DNA of 64,000 bases from Oceanicaulis sp. HLUCCA04. Its GTDB lineage: Bacteria; Pseudomonadota; Alphaproteobacteria; Caulobacterales; Maricaulaceae. Positions 36,737 to 44,789 of this stretch are shown in pieces. The DNA is taken from positions 154,458 to 218,457 of the forward strand of contig LJSH01000002.1 of NCBI GenBank assembly GCA_001314625.1, written 5' to 3'. Numbering within the stretch: the stretch's first letter is position 1; the number at the start of each line of letters is the position of its first letter. A program made the translations under genes and the position numbers. Under the pieces are notes generated by a model, which was not told the DNA's origin, made no database searches, and was given only the letters and a program-made list of their open reading frames with translations.

Positions 36737-38908
36737 TCAGGACGAAGCCAGCGGGCCGAAGGCAGTCATCACATGGTAGAGCATGCTGGCGGGAATATCG
36801 GCCGCCAGCGGCTTGCCTTCGCGGTCATAGGCATCCATCCATCCGCCCGCACAGGCATCGGCAAAATAGCTGGTGCGCAAGCGCTCAAGCAGATCACCGG
36901 CTGAACCGGGCGTCGCTGTTTCCGGGTGACGCAGCCGTGCGCGCAACATTTCCAGCTGAGGCCACAGGCGCCGGTTGCCATCCAGCACCGCGCCGTCAGT
37001 GTCCACGCCGTTGAACGCAAAGCCGCTATCGCGGTCTTGCCCTGACGTGTCGGCAAACCCGATCAGCCTGCGCCGCCAGCTGATCAGGTCGTGGCCCGTC
37101 CGGGCCTCGTATTCAGCCAGCAGCCAGGCCCATTCATGGCAATGGCCGGGTTCTGCGCGCCAGGGTCCGGCGGGCCGGGTCCAGCCGCCAGGCAGTTCTT
37201 CGATCACCGCGCCGCTGACGGCATCAAAGAAGCTGTCTTCGAGACGGCGGACGCAAATCTGCGCGATGGCCAGCGCCTGACCCGAGCCGGTTGCCGCGTC
37301 CAGCGCCAGACAAGCCTCCAGCAAGTGCATGTGCGGGTTCGCGGCGCGCAGCTCCGGAGCCAGCTCCGGGTCGAAGAACCCCATGCCGGATTTGTCAGCC
37401 ATGTGGTCGGCCACAAATGTCAGCGCTTCCAGCGCGAGATCCAGCGCGCGCGGCTCACCGAATGCCTGATAGGCAGTGGCCCCGGCCAGTATCACAAAAG
37501 CATGGTCGTACAGGCCGCGCCGTGGATCGATATGGTGGCCCGAACGGTCCAGCCGGTGAACCCATCCGCCATTGGGCGCACGCGCCGGGCCGTCAAGATA
37601 TTCAAGACCCAGCATGGCGATGCGCCTTGCCTCTTCCGGCTCCCAGCCCAGAATGGCGGCTTCGGAGAACGCAAAGATCTGGCGCGGTATAACCCGCATG
37701 CGCCGCTCGCGATCAGGCAATGGAATTCCATCGAGCGTCAGGCTCTCCACGAAACCGCCCTTATCCTCGTCCCAGGCCGTGCGGGCCCATAGCGGCAGGC
37801 AGTCCTGCGTCAGCCAGCCGTGTGCCCAGCCGCGCGCTTCGGCTGGGACGCCCGATGCCAATTGGGCTGCGCCAACGACAGACTTGATGCCCGCCGCCTC
37901 GCTCAATGGTGTCACGATAACGGCGTCGCGGGTCGCAGCAATGGCAAGGCCCTTCACGCCCTTCACGGCAATCAACGGCCCATCAGAGCGGATATAGCTG
38001 CCTGAAACACCGTCCAGCGCAGCGGGTCCGAAAACGGCATTTGCATCCGCGTCGTGCTGCGAAAGGCCATGCAGGGCCGCGTAATCGCCGACATCGCTCC
38101 ATCCCATCGAGACCGGAACCACCGATGCGAGTTCGGTCTTCTCCATGACGGCATAATCAATGCTGATGGCGGGCGCCTTTGCGAAGGCCGGCCGGTCTAC
38201 AATCTTCGCGCCTGTTGCCGGGTCGGCTCTGGCATGATCGAGCGCATGGCGCGCTGCGGCCAATACACCGGGCGCGTGGCGTTGCAGTTCGCCGAGCATC
38301 ACCGGCGCCTTGAACAGGAAAATGCCGCCATTCCAGAAATACTCGCCGGATGCCAGATAGGCTTTTGCCGTCTCCAGATCAGGCTTCTCGACAAACGCCT
38401 GCACCTTGCGGACCGGGCCCTTCCCGCTGGCTCTGATATAGCCATAACCGGTGGCCGGGTGGTCAGCGGTGATGCCGAAAGTGACAATCTGACCGCCTGC
38501 TGCGGCGTCCGCTCCGGCACTGATGGCTTCAAGAAATGCATCAGGCTGCGCAATATAATGGTCGGCGGGCAGGATCAGGACCAGATCGCCGGGTTCCGCC
38601 GACAGCGCGGCCAGCGCGACAGCGGGCGCGGAATCGCGCGCTACCGGTTCCAGGATGAGATCTGCGCCGGGCAGGTGGGCCCGCAAAAGCGCGCCGTGGC
38701 GCGCCGACCCGATGGCGGCAACGGGCGCCATGCGCACCGTCTCCACGGCTGTGGTATCAAGCCGGGACGCGGTCTGTGCCAGCATGGACGGACCGCCCTG
38801 AAGGCTGAAAAACGGTTTTGGCCTCACCGCGCTGGACAGGGGCCAGAGGCGGGTGCCGGAGCCGCCACACAGGATGAAGGGCCTTATCGTATGCCGGTTC
38901 ATCGTCAC
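36737..38908 (-). CDS. Fused mannose-1-phosphate guanylyltransferase and AGE-family isomerase
   Basis: The 723-residue, two-domain enzyme combines two steps. Residues ~1-345 form a nucleotidyltransferase: IRPFILCGGSGTRLWPLSSA followed by RPKPFF, FVEKPDLETAKAYL and MEKTELASVVPVSMGWSDVGDY, making GDP-mannose. Residues ~355-720 form an N-acylglucosamine 2-epimerase/mannose isomerase (AGE) barrel: RVIPRQIFAFSEA, LYDHAFVIL, NPHMHLLEACLAL and EPGHCHEWAWLL. The AGE half is inferred to interconvert fructose-6-P and mannose-6-P, replacing the usual cupin phosphomannose isomerase. It is transcribed divergently from a hybrid kinase gene. Confidence 0.88.
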   Translation of the reverse strand: MTMNRHTIRPFILCGGSGTRLWPLSSAVRPKPFFSLQGGPSMLAQTASRLDTTAVETVRMAPVAAIGSARHGALLRAHLPGADLILEPVARDSAPAVALAALSAEPGDLVLILPADHYIAQPDAFLEAISAGADAAAGGQIVTFGITADHPATGYGYIRASGKGPVRKVQAFVEKPDLETAKAYLASGEYFWNGGIFLFKAPVMLGELQRHAPGVLAAARHALDHARADPATGAKIVDRPAFAKAPAISIDYAVMEKTELASVVPVSMGWSDVGDYAALHGLSQHDADANAVFGPAALDGVSGSYIRSDGPLIAVKGVKGLAIAATRDAVIVTPLSEAAGIKSVVGAAQLASGVPAEARGWAHGWLTQDCLPLWARTAWDEDKGGFVESLTLDGIPLPDRERRMRVIPRQIFAFSEAAILGWEPEEARRIAMLGLEYLDGPARAPNGGWVHRLDRSGHHIDPRRGLYDHAFVILAGATAYQAFGEPRALDLALEALTFVADHMADKSGMGFFDPELAPELRAANPHMHLLEACLALDAATGSGQALAIAQICVRRLEDSFFDAVSGAVIEELPGGWTRPAGPWRAEPGHCHEWAWLLAEYEARTGHDLISWRRRLIGFADTSGQDRDSGFAFNGVDTDGAVLDGNRRLWPQLEMLRARLRHPETATPGSAGDLLERLRTSYFADACAGGWMDAYDREGKPLAADIPASMLYHVMTAFGPLASS

Positions 38909-39131
38909 ATCCGCCCTTCCGGTCCCCGTTAGCAGCGGCTGGAGTGCTGCGCTGCATCCGGTCTTTGTCCAACAGTCCGGTTTGCCAGAATGTTACCAGC
39001 GCCCGGCTTTCACAGTGATGCGATGGCAGGCTGATTGGGGAATAGGTTACCAAATCGGTGTCATACTGACGTCAGATCGCAGCAAATCTGCATGGCCGCC
39101 AATGGCCCCGGGCAGAGACAATGAAGCAAAC

Positions 39132-41588
39132 ATGACCCTGCCACCCCTTGATGGTGAAATACTTTTCGAGACCAGCCCGCATCCGATGATGGTGTTTGAG
39201 CGGGATTCGCTGGCAATTTTGCGGGTCAATCAGTCGGCTATCACGACCTATGGTTACAGCCGGGAAGAGTTCTTGCGGCTGACGGTGCAGGACCTCAAGC
39301 CTGAAGAGGACATCCCGGCCCTCTACGATGTGGTACGCAATTCGGGCAGCGGCCCGGAGCGGCCGGGGATCTGGCGGCATCTGACCAAGGCCGGTGACAC
39401 GCGCTGGATGGATATTGCCGGGCACAATCTGGATTATGACGGCAAGGCGGCACGGCTCGCGATCATTCTTGACGTCACGCATATCGTGGAGCTCGAGCGC
39501 GAGCATGCCGGCCTCCATGCCAGTGAGATGGCCGCGCGCCAGCAGGCGGAGGCCGAGGCGCAAAGCTTCCGCTCGGTGCTGGAATCCGCCTCAGGCAAGT
39601 TTGCCGTGGTGCGAGCCGGTAATTTCGAGATTTTCGCTGTCAGCGACGAGTATCTGGCGGTGACGGGGCGTACACGCTCTGAACTGATTGGCCGCGAGAT
39701 ATTCAGCGCTTTCCCTGACAACCCCGTGGAACCTGATGCAGATGGCGTCAGCCGCCTGGAAGCAAGCTTCCGCCGTGTGTGCGATTCCGGCAGCACCGAT
39801 GTGATGGCATTGCAGCGCTATCCCATCGAAATCCCCGGTCCAGACGGTTTGGACTTTCAGGAACGCTGGTGGCACGTCGTCAACACGCCGGTGCTGGGGC
39901 CTGGTGGCCAGGTCAGCTACATCATCAACCGGGTGGAAGACGTAACGGGCTATGTCCGGGAAGGCAGTTTGCAATCTGACAGCCTGCCCGCGACGCCCGA
40001 AACGCTCATGGTCACGCATGAACTGGCGCAGGCGGCCAGGCGCATGCGTGAGCAGGAAACCAATCTGAGAACGGCGCAGGAGCTGCTCGGGATCGGGGTA
40101 TGGAAATACGATTTGGCCACCCGGACACACATCTGGTCAGACGAGGTCAAGAGAATCTACGGGGACACCTCGAAATGTCCCACCATATCGTTCAGGAACC
40201 ACGCGCGGCTGGTTCATCCCGATGACCGCGAAGCCTTGTACGCACAGTACAAGGCATTCGAGAGTTCAGGCAGCAACGCGTTTGAGTTCCAATACCGTAT
40301 TGTTCGCCTTGATAACGGGCGGATCGTGCATGTACGCGGCATTGCCGAGCGCACAGGCGAGGGCAAAGACGCGGTTCTGACCGGCGTCGTTCAGGACGTG
40401 ACACAGCGCAAACGGGAGGAAGCCGAGCTGCTGGCCGCGCGCGACGAGGCAGAACGGGCCAACCGGCTGAAATCGGAATTTCTGGCCAATATGAGCCATG
40501 AGATCCGAACGCCGCTGAACGGGGTGCTGGGGATGTCGCAAATCCTCGCGCGCACCCCTCTGGATGAGCGTCAGAAGCGTATGGTGGATACGGTCCTGAG
40601 CTCGGGCAAGGCGCTTCTGTCCATCCTTGATGATGTTCTGAATATCTCGAAGATCGAAGCGGGCCTGTTCACGCTGGAACCCGAGCCGGTATCGCTGACG
40701 GCGATGTGCGCGCGAGCCATAGACGCTGTTACAGCCGGTGCTCTGGAAAAGGGACTGTGTGTCAGCAGCCATATCGATCCGGCGCTGCCCGCGCGCGTGA
40801 TTACCGATCACCGGCGCATGGGTCAGGTGCTCATCAACCTCCTGGGCAATGCCGTCAAGTTCACCGCGTCCGGCTCGGTAACCCTCTTGGTCGAGCGCGC
40901 AGACCCCGGCCGGATACGCTTTATTGTCGACGATACAGGCCCCGGCATCCCGCCGGAGCGTATCAACATCATTTTCGACCGGTTCCGGCAGGCCGACACC
41001 GGCCCGGCACGCAGCCATGATGGTGCGGGACTGGGCCTTGCCATCTGCAAGGATTTTACGGGCCTGATGGGCGGCACCATCCATGCCCAAAGCGAGCCGG
41101 GGCAAGGATCGCGCTTCATCGTTACCGTGCCTCTGATCGAGGCTGCGGGGCCGGAATACCAGCCGCAGACGAGCGGGAGTCCGCGTGTAAGCGCACCTGT
41201 GCCCGCCCGGCTGCTGATCGCCGAGGACAATGCCGTCAGCCTGCAGACATTGCAGATGATGCTGGAGCAGATGGGCGTCTGCCAAGCCGTTCATGCCGGC
41301 AATGGCAAGGACGCCGTGATGGCTGCGCTGGCCAGCGATTTTGATGCCATCATCATGGATATCTCCATGCCGGTGATGAACGGGCTGGAGGCGATCCATC
41401 ATATCCGCTCGAGCACAGGTCCACGCGGACACACGCCGATCCTGGCGCTAACCGCGCTGGCTGAGACCCATGACAGGGATGCATGCCTGAAGGCCGGGGC
41501 CGATGCGTATCTGGCCAAGCCGGTCAATATGGAGGATCTGCGCGTGACCCTGGCGCGTCTGAATGCCATGCGAGGCGGTGGCGGGTAG
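39132..41588 (+). CDS. Hybrid PAS-domain sensor histidine kinase
   Basis: The 818-residue cytosolic hybrid kinase has three PAS-like domains (about residues 10-115, 150-275, 310-425). HisKA (EFLANMSHEIRTPLNGVLGM, phospho-His 456) and a HATPase (about 555-670, GLGLAICKDFTGLMGG) follow. A C-terminal receiver has acceptor Asp 743 in FDAIIMDISMPVMNG and Lys in KPVNMEDL. No membrane helices are present. The signal is unknown; a soluble sensor is inferred. The open frame extends upstream to 38853 through the divergent promoter region, so I use ATG 39132; ATG 39102 is possible. Confidence 0.9.
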   Translation: MTLPPLDGEILFETSPHPMMVFERDSLAILRVNQSAITTYGYSREEFLRLTVQDLKPEEDIPALYDVVRNSGSGPERPGIWRHLTKAGDTRWMDIAGHNLDYDGKAARLAIILDVTHIVELEREHAGLHASEMAARQQAEAEAQSFRSVLESASGKFAVVRAGNFEIFAVSDEYLAVTGRTRSELIGREIFSAFPDNPVEPDADGVSRLEASFRRVCDSGSTDVMALQRYPIEIPGPDGLDFQERWWHVVNTPVLGPGGQVSYIINRVEDVTGYVREGSLQSDSLPATPETLMVTHELAQAARRMREQETNLRTAQELLGIGVWKYDLATRTHIWSDEVKRIYGDTSKCPTISFRNHARLVHPDDREALYAQYKAFESSGSNAFEFQYRIVRLDNGRIVHVRGIAERTGEGKDAVLTGVVQDVTQRKREEAELLAARDEAERANRLKSEFLANMSHEIRTPLNGVLGMSQILARTPLDERQKRMVDTVLSSGKALLSILDDVLNISKIEAGLFTLEPEPVSLTAMCARAIDAVTAGALEKGLCVSSHIDPALPARVITDHRRMGQVLINLLGNAVKFTASGSVTLLVERADPGRIRFIVDDTGPGIPPERINIIFDRFRQADTGPARSHDGAGLGLAICKDFTGLMGGTIHAQSEPGQGSRFIVTVPLIEAAGPEYQPQTSGSPRVSAPVPARLLIAEDNAVSLQTLQMMLEQMGVCQAVHAGNGKDAVMAALASDFDAIIMDISMPVMNGLEAIHHIRSSTGPRGHTPILALTALAETHDRDACLKAGADAYLAKPVNMEDLRVTLARLNAMRGGGG

Positions 41589-41649: not shown

Positions 41650-41726
<77 letters not shown>

Positions 41727-41912: not shown

Positions 41913-43928
41913 ATGGATACAGCCGAGCTCATCTTGCTGGCGGCGGCAGGTCTTGTCCTGCTCGCCATTGCAGGGGTTGCCGCAACGCGGCAGGCCGGCG
42001 CTCCGCTATTGCTGATCTTCCTCGTCATCGGGATGCTGGCGGGCGAGGAAGGGCCCGGCGGGATCGCCTTCCATGCCCATGACACGGCGTATCTTTTCGG
42101 CTCGCTGGCGCTGGCGCTGATCCTGTTTGATGGCGGGCTTGGCACGCGGCTGCGCCGCCTGCGCAGCGTTCTGCGTCCTTCCCTGAGCCTGGCCACGCTG
42201 GGCGTGATCATCACCGCAGGCATCACGGCGGTGGCCGCAAAATACCTGTTCGGGCTTGGCTGGATCGAGGCCGCCTTGATGGGCGCGATCGTATCATCCA
42301 CCGACGCGGCGGCCGTCCTGATGCTGATTGCGGGCCGTGACCTGAACGCGCGCCCGCGTGTGGCGACCACGCTGGAAGCTGAATCCGGCTTCAATGATCC
42401 GATGGCCGTGATCCTGGTGGTCACGTTTGTGGCCTGGCTGACCGGCCAGGGCGCGCCCGATCCGTTTCTTGCAACGATTTCCATAAGCTGGGCCATTGTG
42501 GCCGGCGGGCTGATTGGCTGGTTTGGCGGGCGCACGATTGCCTATATCGAGCGAAAGATCGGTCTGCCCATCGGCCTGTATCCGATTTTTGCGTCGGCGG
42601 GCGCGGTTTTCCTCTTTGCGTTTGCCGAAGTGATAGGCGGTTCAGGTTTTCTGGCGGCTTATCTGGCCGGCGTATCAATGGCGTCCGCGCCCAGGCGCCG
42701 GGCTGCGGAGGCAACCGCGCGCTTTTCTGACGGGCTGGCCTGGATTGCCCAGATCGGTCTCTTCCTGATGCTGGGGCTCCTAGTCACGCCCAGTCACGCC
42801 GCCGAAGTCGCCTTGCCCGCGCTGGGACTGGCATTCGTGCTGATACTGGTGGCGCGCCCCGTTGCGGTGCTGGTCTGTCTGGCGCCAGAGCGTTTCCGGC
42901 TCAATGAGCGCGCGTTTATAGGCTGGATGGGCTTGCGCGGAGCGGTGCCGATCTTTCTGGGCGCGTTTCCGGTCCTCGCCGGTGTGGAGAACGCCAATCT
43001 CTATTTTTCCGCTGCCTTTGCCGTTGTGATTGCATCGCTGGTCATTCAGGGCTGGACGGCCGGTCCGGTAGCGCGCCTGTTCAATGTGGCGCCGCCGCTG
43101 GCGCGCGGTGGCAATCTGGCCAATGCCGGCATGATCGCAGTTGTTGCCGTGGGCTTTACGCTGGCGAGCGCCGTTGTGTCGTTCGGGGCCAATGAGCGCG
43201 GTGGCCGGACCGAGCCGATTGCACCGCTCAATGTACGCGAATTGCTGGCCGCCCTCGGACCTGAAGGGTCGTCAGGCGCTATCCGTCTGGAGAGCTTCCC
43301 CTCCGACTGGGAAAGCATGGACCCGGCCGCGCGCCGCGACACCTTTGCGCGGGTGGCGGCAGGTCTGGTGGCCGCGCAGAATGAGCGCATTGTCGAAGAG
43401 CGCGAGCAATTGCTGGTCATGCGCGCCCAGCAAGAGGCAGGCATCGCGCTGAGCCTGCCCCAGCAGGCAAGACGCGATTCGCTGGCCCGGCGTTATGGTG
43501 GCCGCTACGACGATCTTGATGACTTGCTGGCGCGCGTCGATGTGGTGCCGCCATCACTGGGGGCCGCGCAGGCCGCACTGGCCACAGGCTGGGGCAGCAG
43601 CGAAACCGCCATTGCCCGCAATTCGCTCTATGGGCGGATCCCGCGCGAAGGGCGTTTTTCCAGCCTGACCGCGGCGGCAGCCGAGTATGTGGATGTGTTC
43701 AACACCCACCGGGACTTCGCGGCATTCCGCGCCGAGCGGGCCAGGCTCAGGTCAGAGGGCGAACCGATAACCAGCCCGGCGCTGGTCGGCCTGGTCGGAC
43801 CCTATGCCGATAGCGGCGACAGCTATGCTGCACAGGTCAGCGCCGTGCTGAACAGTGCTGGACTCGCCCGCTTTGACCCCGAACAGGATGCGCGCTTTTC
43901 CGGGGAAGGCCGGGTTGGGGACGGCTAG
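41913..43928 (+). CDS. Cation/proton antiporter fused to a Bax-like glucosaminidase domain
   Basis: The 671-residue protein appears to be a fusion. Residues ~1-395 form a CPA1-type antiporter with about 12 helices (GLGTRLRRLRSVLRPSLSLA, IVSSTDAAAVLMLIAGRDL, ESGFNDPMAVILVV, PVARLF), probably exchanging K+ or Na+ for H+. One further helix (about 401-423) leads to a region homologous to E. coli Bax, a GH73-type N-acetylglucosaminidase: NERIVEEREQLLVM, LLARVDVVPPSLGAAQAAL, TGWGSSETA and FNTHRDFAAFRAERA. The catalytic Glu expected in Q-A-A-x-E-S-x-W-G is Ala 557. The extra helix would put the domain in the periplasm. The start ATG 41913 begins the transporter domain. Confidence 0.85.
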   Translation: MDTAELILLAAAGLVLLAIAGVAATRQAGAPLLLIFLVIGMLAGEEGPGGIAFHAHDTAYLFGSLALALILFDGGLGTRLRRLRSVLRPSLSLATLGVIITAGITAVAAKYLFGLGWIEAALMGAIVSSTDAAAVLMLIAGRDLNARPRVATTLEAESGFNDPMAVILVVTFVAWLTGQGAPDPFLATISISWAIVAGGLIGWFGGRTIAYIERKIGLPIGLYPIFASAGAVFLFAFAEVIGGSGFLAAYLAGVSMASAPRRRAAEATARFSDGLAWIAQIGLFLMLGLLVTPSHAAEVALPALGLAFVLILVARPVAVLVCLAPERFRLNERAFIGWMGLRGAVPIFLGAFPVLAGVENANLYFSAAFAVVIASLVIQGWTAGPVARLFNVAPPLARGGNLANAGMIAVVAVGFTLASAVVSFGANERGGRTEPIAPLNVRELLAALGPEGSSGAIRLESFPSDWESMDPAARRDTFARVAAGLVAAQNERIVEEREQLLVMRAQQEAGIALSLPQQARRDSLARRYGGRYDDLDDLLARVDVVPPSLGAAQAALATGWGSSETAIARNSLYGRIPREGRFSSLTAAAAEYVDVFNTHRDFAAFRAERARLRSEGEPITSPALVGLVGPYADSGDSYAAQVSAVLNSAGLARFDPEQDARFSGEGRVGDG

Positions 43929-44542
43929 GTGATTGTGCGCGCCAGAATGAATCCGCCAATGCCGCCGGCAATGATCAGCCCCCAGAGCCACCAGCGCACA
44001 CCGGGCTTGCGGACCGGCTCGGCCTCCAGCTCGTCTTCGCCAAACTCGTGGGCGATATCGGGCATGGTCCAGGCCAGATAGGCCGTGGGCAGTGTGAAGC
44101 AGTAGAGCAGAACGCCCCAGAATATCGTGTTCCAGTGGGTATAGCTGTCGGGCGCCCACAAGGTCAGGCGCGTATCGTCGTTAGCAACCGCCAGATAGAA
44201 GATCGCGGACGCGACCAGCCCCGTCAAAAGGTGATAGGCAAAGGCATAGGCCTTCTGACGCAGATCGCGTTCCAGATCGTCGAGTTCGCAAAGCTGCTCT
44301 CCGACAATGCGCTGCATGTAAGATGGCGCAATGTAGAAGAACGCGAAAATGGCAATCGCGATGATGGCCAGCCCGGTCAGGTTGAGGGCGAACGCACCGC
44401 TGCCGTCTCCGGCGAGGCTGGAATTGAGCGTGAGCAGGGCGCCGAGCGGATACCCTGCCAGAATAATGCCGGTAGCAAGACGCATGGAGGCGCGGCTGCG
44501 CTGTGCAACCCTGCCATTGGCGGTTCGCATGTAAAACGACAT
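43925..44542 (-). CDS. Hypothetical membrane protein partner of an XRE regulator
   Basis: The 205-residue protein has four or five hydrophobic segments (about residues 20-42, 50-72, 100-118, 138-160 and 180-198) and an acidic stretch (HEFGEDELEAEP) before the last helix. I do not recognise a family. It starts one base after the XRE gene stop, so the two form an operon; regulator plus small membrane protein is a recurring pattern. Its stop overlaps the antiporter stop (CTAG, convergent). Confidence 0.65.
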   Translation of the reverse strand: MSFYMRTANGRVAQRSRASMRLATGIILAGYPLGALLTLNSSLAGDGSGAFALNLTGLAIIAIAIFAFFYIAPSYMQRIVGEQLCELDDLERDLRQKAYAFAYHLLTGLVASAIFYLAVANDDTRLTLWAPDSYTHWNTIFWGVLLYCFTLPTAYLAWTMPDIAHEFGEDELEAEPVRKPGVRWWLWGLIIAGGIGGFILARTIT

Positions 44543-44543
44543 G

Positions 44544-44789
44544 TCATTGATCCCGTTGGTTCGCGATCCGCGAGAGCGGCTCGAAGGGTTTGAGCGAGAA
44601 GATCATTTCGACAGGCAACTCGAAATACTCCGACAGCTTCAGGGCCAGTTCGAGCGAAGGGCTGTAATCCCCGCGCTCCAGATAACCGATCGTCTGGAAA
44701 TTCACGCCCACTGAATCGGCCAGCGCCTTGCGGGACAGACCGCGTTCGGCGCGCAGCACGGGCAGACGGTTATAGATGGGTGAACTCAT
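44544..44789 (-). CDS. Small XRE-family transcriptional regulator
   Basis: The 81-residue HTH_3 protein is almost only a DNA-binding domain: RLPVLRAERGLSRKALADSVGVNFQTIGYLERGDYSPSLELALKLSEYFELPVEMIF. Regulators of this size usually act on their own operon, often one encoding a membrane protein, as here. A Caulobacter-type promoter and an 18-bp near-palindrome are upstream. Confidence 0.88.
   Translation of the reverse strand: MSSPIYNRLPVLRAERGLSRKALADSVGVNFQTIGYLERGDYSPSLELALKLSEYFELPVEMIFSLKPFEPLSRIANQRDQ

Follow-up and report, generated by a model that had tools for sequence, protein, structure and literature searches.

K+/H+ antiporters of the CvrA (YcgO)/NhaP2 type (PRK05326; models NF003714, NF003715 and NF003716) are built around a common transport domain, which in Escherichia coli CvrA is followed by TrkA_C and CorC_HlyC. 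At low osmolarity, CvrA reportedly helps to regulate cell volume (PMC7349511). For Vc-NhaP2, a model with 13 transmembrane (TM) segments and a cytoplasmic tail has been described, together with the essential residues Thr132, Asp133, Glu155, Glu157, Ser158, Asn161, Asp162 and Arg315 (PMC6567090). Removal of the C-terminal tail lowered the activity of Vc-NhaP2 (PMC6567090), which means that an element located at this place can matter for transport.

Glucosaminidases of family GH73 are described as having an invariant glutamate that likely serves as the general acid, which is E184 in Salmonella FlgJ (PMC4752226). According to the same source, FlgJ also needs a second glutamate located on a beta-hairpin, and some GH73 enzymes do not need the hairpin carboxylate. 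A precedent for the retention of a wall-enzyme domain that does not cut is provided by Caulobacter DipM, whose catalytically inactive LytM domain binds and stimulates autolysins (PMC10336132).

The window analyzed here is a stretch of 64,000 nucleotides from Oceanicaulis sp. HLUCCA04. It carries a gene in which the transport domain of CvrA-type antiporters is followed not by TrkA_C and CorC_HlyC, but by an extra helix and a domain of the Bax family. The parts of this gene are as follows.

41913..43928, + strand: entire fusion gene (671 codons and a stop codon), with which relatives align from the first residue onwards
41913..43100, + strand: CPA1 K+/H+ antiporter domain, residues 1-396 (PF00999, NF003715), with transport-site residues present in 30/30 fusions
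43107..43196, + strand: extra hydrophobic segment (putative TM14), residues about 399-428, with a hydropathy peak of 2.15 at 406-424; present in 30/30 fusions
43197..43325, + strand: variable stalk, residues about 429-471; in most of the pairs compared its identity is lower than that of the other three regions
43326..43877, + strand: Bax-family GH73 domain, residues about 472-655 (NF007681 match at 472-647; hhalign E 3.8e-42)
43581..43583, + strand: codon for A557, the residue aligned with the GH73 general-acid glutamate (alignment with E. coli Bax, the fusions and free-standing Bax proteins)
43635..43655, + strand: short remnant of the active-site hairpin stretch, 7 residues (575-581); the E. 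coli Bax stretch has 20 residues

The original prediction placed an antiporter, an additional helix and a Bax-type region in one frame, and named a sequencing or frame error at the junction as a risk. The frame reads through without interruption from the ATG at 41913 to the stop at 43926-43928. A survey of genomes found the same architecture in 30 distinct genomes, in each case as a single frame of 649-765 codons, and this confirms that the fusion is real and does not reflect a local frame error. The nearest named relative, from Glycocaulis albus (placed in Maricaulaceae, Maricaulales), is 81% identical in the C-terminal part and 89% identical across the whole protein. A Pfam scan of the window protein at E <= 1 returned PF00999 and PF01832 only, with no TrkA_C or CorC_HlyC module.

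Assignment of the N-terminal part to the CPA1 antiporters was upheld by two models. PF00999 (Na_H_Exchanger) matches residues 15-387 (E 1.3e-53, 182.6 bits), and the potassium/proton antiporter model NF003715 matches residues 1-397 with 473.3 bits against a cut-off of 309, although only over positions 1-396 of its 595. Residues T130, D131, E155, E157, S158, N161, D162, R315 and R342 are kept in all 30 fusions and in CvrA, which served as the aligned reference; comparison with Vc-NhaP2 relies on the positions published for that protein (PMC6567090). The ion-site ND motif, the TD pair and the conserved arginine (N161, D162, T130, D131 and R315) are thus present in every fusion, and the transporter part looks functional as judged from these residues. 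Glutamate at position 155, which all 30 fusions carry, occurs in just one of nine non-fused relatives (L072-L080). Its absence from the other eight may mean that these proteins have a different ion preference.

Homology of the C-terminal part to Bax and GH73 proteins extends over about 180 residues. The NF007681 model, "protein bax", matches the C-terminal 275 residues at E 8.9e-21, with 74.3 bits against a cut-off of 193, and PF01832 (Glucosaminidase) yields 27.1 bits against a cut-off of 30.2. Both scores for the window protein fall below the curated thresholds, and one other fusion (L023) exceeds that of PF01832 with 43.7 bits. The relationship is borne out by direct comparison with E. coli Bax (BLASTP, 30% identity over 184 columns, E 5e-27) and by profile-profile alignment (hhalign), in which the C-termini of 23 fusions matched 10 free-standing Bax proteins at a probability of 100% and E 3.8e-42. 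An imine reductase (5ojl), whose fold we take to be unrelated, was hit by phmmer at E 0.0014 and judged to be a chance match.

Conservation across the domain had also been predicted, and it is strict at the framework of the fold, where the GWG and N-x-(F/Y)G elements are kept. Residues R474, N490, R497, P546, Q553, G559, W560, G561, N570, G574 and R606 are invariant in 30/30 fusions and occur in 28-31 of 31 free-standing Bax proteins. Values of dN/dS (Nei-Gojobori) for the Bax domain are 0.10-0.24 in seven of eight pairs and 0.52 in the remaining pair, compared with 0.04-0.16 for the antiporter part in the same eight pairs; these values are rough in several pairs because dS there is above 0.8. 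The ratios indicate that the Bax domain is under purifying selection, though it is evolving faster than the antiporter part.

What did not hold was the name "glucosaminidase". The motif QAALATGWGSS, quoted in the original prediction as a sign of conservation, marks the very place where the catalytic glutamate of E. coli Bax (AAAESGWGTS) is missing. The window protein has A557 at the general-acid position (ALATGWG, compared with AAESGWG in E. coli Bax). Across the 30 fusions this position is alanine in 28, threonine in one and serine in one, and is never glutamate, whereas all 31 free-standing Bax proteins in the alignment carry glutamate. Those 31 comprise E. coli Bax and the 30 best-scoring loci from the 168 class genomes matching NF007681, a sample that leans towards typical enzymes because it was drawn from the best-scoring loci. 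Compared with free-standing Bax proteins, the fusion domain also has a hairpin stretch that is mostly shortened, at 3-17 residues versus 9-27 in the same 31 proteins, although the ranges overlap. Three fusions that branch apart from the main family group in the phylogeny described below (L020, L021 and L023) have a longer stretch of 12-17 residues and have lost the glutamate, which may mean that the glutamate was lost before the hairpin shrank.

With the glutamate absent, the hairpin mostly short and the rest of the fold kept, a pseudo-glucosaminidase is the most likely description, and the Bax domain of the fusion is very probably a dead enzyme. A profile search of the PDB gave two joint-best matches. 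One of these, 3k3t, has alanine at the general-acid place, a match to be read with the fact that the fusion profile itself favours alanine at this position; the related chain 3vwo has glutamate there. We take 3k3t to be an engineered inactive mutant.

The additional helix proposed after the antiporter is present as a hydrophobic segment in 30/30 fusions, with a best 19-residue mean of 1.36-2.27. If the 13-segment topology of the family holds, one more helix should place the Bax domain in the periplasm, as had been suggested. The charges of the flanks are partly in favour of this orientation. The flank preceding the helix is net positive in 22/30 fusions, neutral in two and net negative in six, and in the 20 residues that follow the helix K+R never exceeds D+E in any of the 30. 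From the family topology and the extra helix, the Bax domain is probably periplasmic. AlphaFold models built from alignments of two sequences (the window protein and L002) reached a mean pLDDT of 38.3 for the full length and 52.3 for the domain, values too poor to show a glycan groove, and were excluded from the evidence. A PDB fold search with the domain model (pLDDT 52.3) gave no match at E <= 0.001.

The fusion was traced through samples of increasing breadth. Within the family, 21/137 genomes match the C-terminal part, and 20/137 have the antiporter in the same frame (649-765 codons). The remaining match (G095) is a short, partial frame of 78 codons at E 7.9e-4. For one genome (G009) the search counted one TAG, yet the 705-codon frame that joins antiporter and Bax there reads without interruption. 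In the order sample, a match by at least one of the two models (E <= 1e-5) was obtained for 25/299 genomes, in every case with a frame of 649-765 codons. Fifteen of the 25 belong to the family, and the other 10, from outside it, likewise read as fusions. No Bax domain was found outside fusion frames among these 299 genomes at E <= 1e-5. The 30 distinct fusions are distributed over three families, with 20 in f1, nine in f5 and one in f2.

NF007681 matches 168/385 genomes of the class sample, with frames of 255-589 codons among the matches listed (down to about E 6e-28). The fusion profile matches 120/327 class genomes at E <= 1e-35, and the only frames longer than 589 codons are that of the window's own genome (714 codons) and a second one of 750 codons. 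In the phylum sample 125/398 genomes match at E <= 1e-8, and the window's own is the only frame longer than 592 codons. The matches listed for the class and phylum include no further antiporter fusion, and the fusion is thus confined to one order as far as sampled. The 750-codon frame (G410, locus L148, minus strand), which lies outside the order, was considered as a second fusion and rejected, as it has no antiporter. Its protein is proline-rich, is similar to the window protein over residues 440-670 only, and has a Bax domain that keeps the glutamate (ESGWG).

In the window's own genome the fused gene is the only match at E <= 0.001, and NF007681 and PF01832 have no further match there at E <= 1. 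One genome (G011) has, besides the fused gene, a 606-codon gene with a nearly full-length match to NF003715, and short single-domain antiporter relatives of 395-439 codons (L072-L079) occur in eight family genomes. A tree of the 30 fused antiporter domains, nine non-fused ones and E. coli CvrA groups the fused domains together with support of 98/97, in an analysis that included only 10 non-fused rows and drew a long-branch warning from the program. A single group of fused antiporters fits a single joining event. Among viral contigs, 25 stretches matched a pattern and none is a relative; among plasmids, 87 records match, none covers at least 80% of the query, and the 15 listed match in the antiporter part only.

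We favour, at roughly even confidence, the reading that this gene encodes a CvrA/NhaP2-type K+/H+ antiporter whose dead periplasmic Bax domain serves as a wall-binding tether or sensor. The cytoplasmic regulatory module, represented by TrkA_C and CorC_HlyC in E. coli CvrA, would have been replaced by one more TM helix and the Bax domain. This domain keeps the GH73 framework but is without the catalytic glutamate, and most members have also lost much of the active-site hairpin. It may bind the glycan of peptidoglycan in the periplasm without cutting it. Binding to the wall would tether the antiporter, and the state of the wall or turgor could then bias K+ exchange. The sequences show the architecture and its conservation, the loss of the glutamate, the retention of the transport-site residues and purifying selection. 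A role in turgor sensing or in positioning of the pump, as originally put forward, is a reasonable though tentative proposal. A more specific form of this proposal, which we offer tentatively, is a wall-gated K+/H+ antiporter: in a single event a cell-wall hydrolase would have been fused to a K+ antiporter that regulates volume, and it would then have lost its catalytic residue and become a periplasmic receptor that reads the peptidoglycan and sets K+ exchange, taking over from the cytoplasmic regulatory tail.

Other explanations draw on much of the same evidence. The dead domain could regulate wall-cutting enzymes in the manner of DipM, with the antiporter placing it or reporting the ion state. 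Loss of the glutamate from a conserved fold suits protein binding equally with glycan binding, and DipM and other inactive LytM proteins resemble the fusion in retaining a wall-enzyme domain without catalysis, although their domain belongs to a different enzyme family, that of the LytM endopeptidases (PMC10336132). We consider this explanation unlikely, as no partner is known for the fusion and the retention of transport-site residues in 30/30 proteins argues that the antiporter is more than an anchor. DipM itself is not known to be attached to a transporter. It is slightly less probable again that the domain has no role at the wall, being either a structural extension that serves folding, stability or a dimer contact, or a relic in slow decay. 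Its faster evolution, including the pair with a dN/dS of 0.52, would suit this idea, and the eight short family relatives indicate that not every relative needs the tail. Against it stand the framework residues that are invariant in all 30 fusions, the low ratios in the other seven pairs, and the occurrence of the domain in fusion frames only within the order sample (25/299 genomes).

That the domain is an active glucosaminidase, with cutting coupled to ion exchange, is very improbable. The family match, the score of L023 above the PF01832 cut-off, and the dispensability of the hairpin carboxylate in some GH73 enzymes (PMC4752226) are compatible with activity, but the general-acid glutamate described there as invariant in GH73 is absent from every fusion. 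The least probable alternative, to which we give hardly any weight, is that the frame yields two proteins through an internal start at the extra helix, the second being a separate membrane-anchored Bax-like protein. In the window protein, M407 is located at the beginning of this helix. In a comparison that covered ATG starts, only 10/30 fusions have methionine in that column and 4/30 have none anywhere in the stretch compared.

No description of an antiporter fused to a GH73-type domain was found by title or listing in the open-licence PMC literature. The parts are known, and what is new is their combination with a consistent loss of the catalytic residue, within a known transporter family. 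It looks like the conversion of an enzyme to a receptor, inherited across a clade, and suggests that an old enzyme is now a handle or sensor for the cell wall. How bacteria match turgor to the growing wall is an open question. A single gene that combines a K+/H+ antiporter with a wall-enzyme fold that very probably has ceased to cut makes a link between wall and turgor directly testable, and a wall-gated antiporter, if true, would tie the state of the wall directly to turgor at the molecular level.

The surroundings of the gene offered several additional observations. A scan for promoters and terminators gave nothing usable, and no wall genes were seen among the five window neighbours scanned. 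Upstream lie a gene for a hybrid histidine kinase in which several PAS domains are combined with a receiver domain (window 38853-41588) and, between it and the fusion gene, a tRNA-Arg (ccg) on the minus strand (41650-41726). Convergent to the fusion gene, with its stop overlapping by four bases, is a gene for a 205-aa membrane protein with a borderline DUF350 match; a gene for a small HTH_3 regulator is located upstream of this DUF350-like gene, and the pair (window 43925-44789) looks like a two-gene unit. In E. coli K-12 (L121:2336-5792), cvrA has two wall genes as neighbours, namely ldcA, for a murein tetrapeptide carboxypeptidase, and emtA, for a lytic transglycosylase; this hints, in a single genome, at a link between CvrA-type antiporters and wall metabolism.
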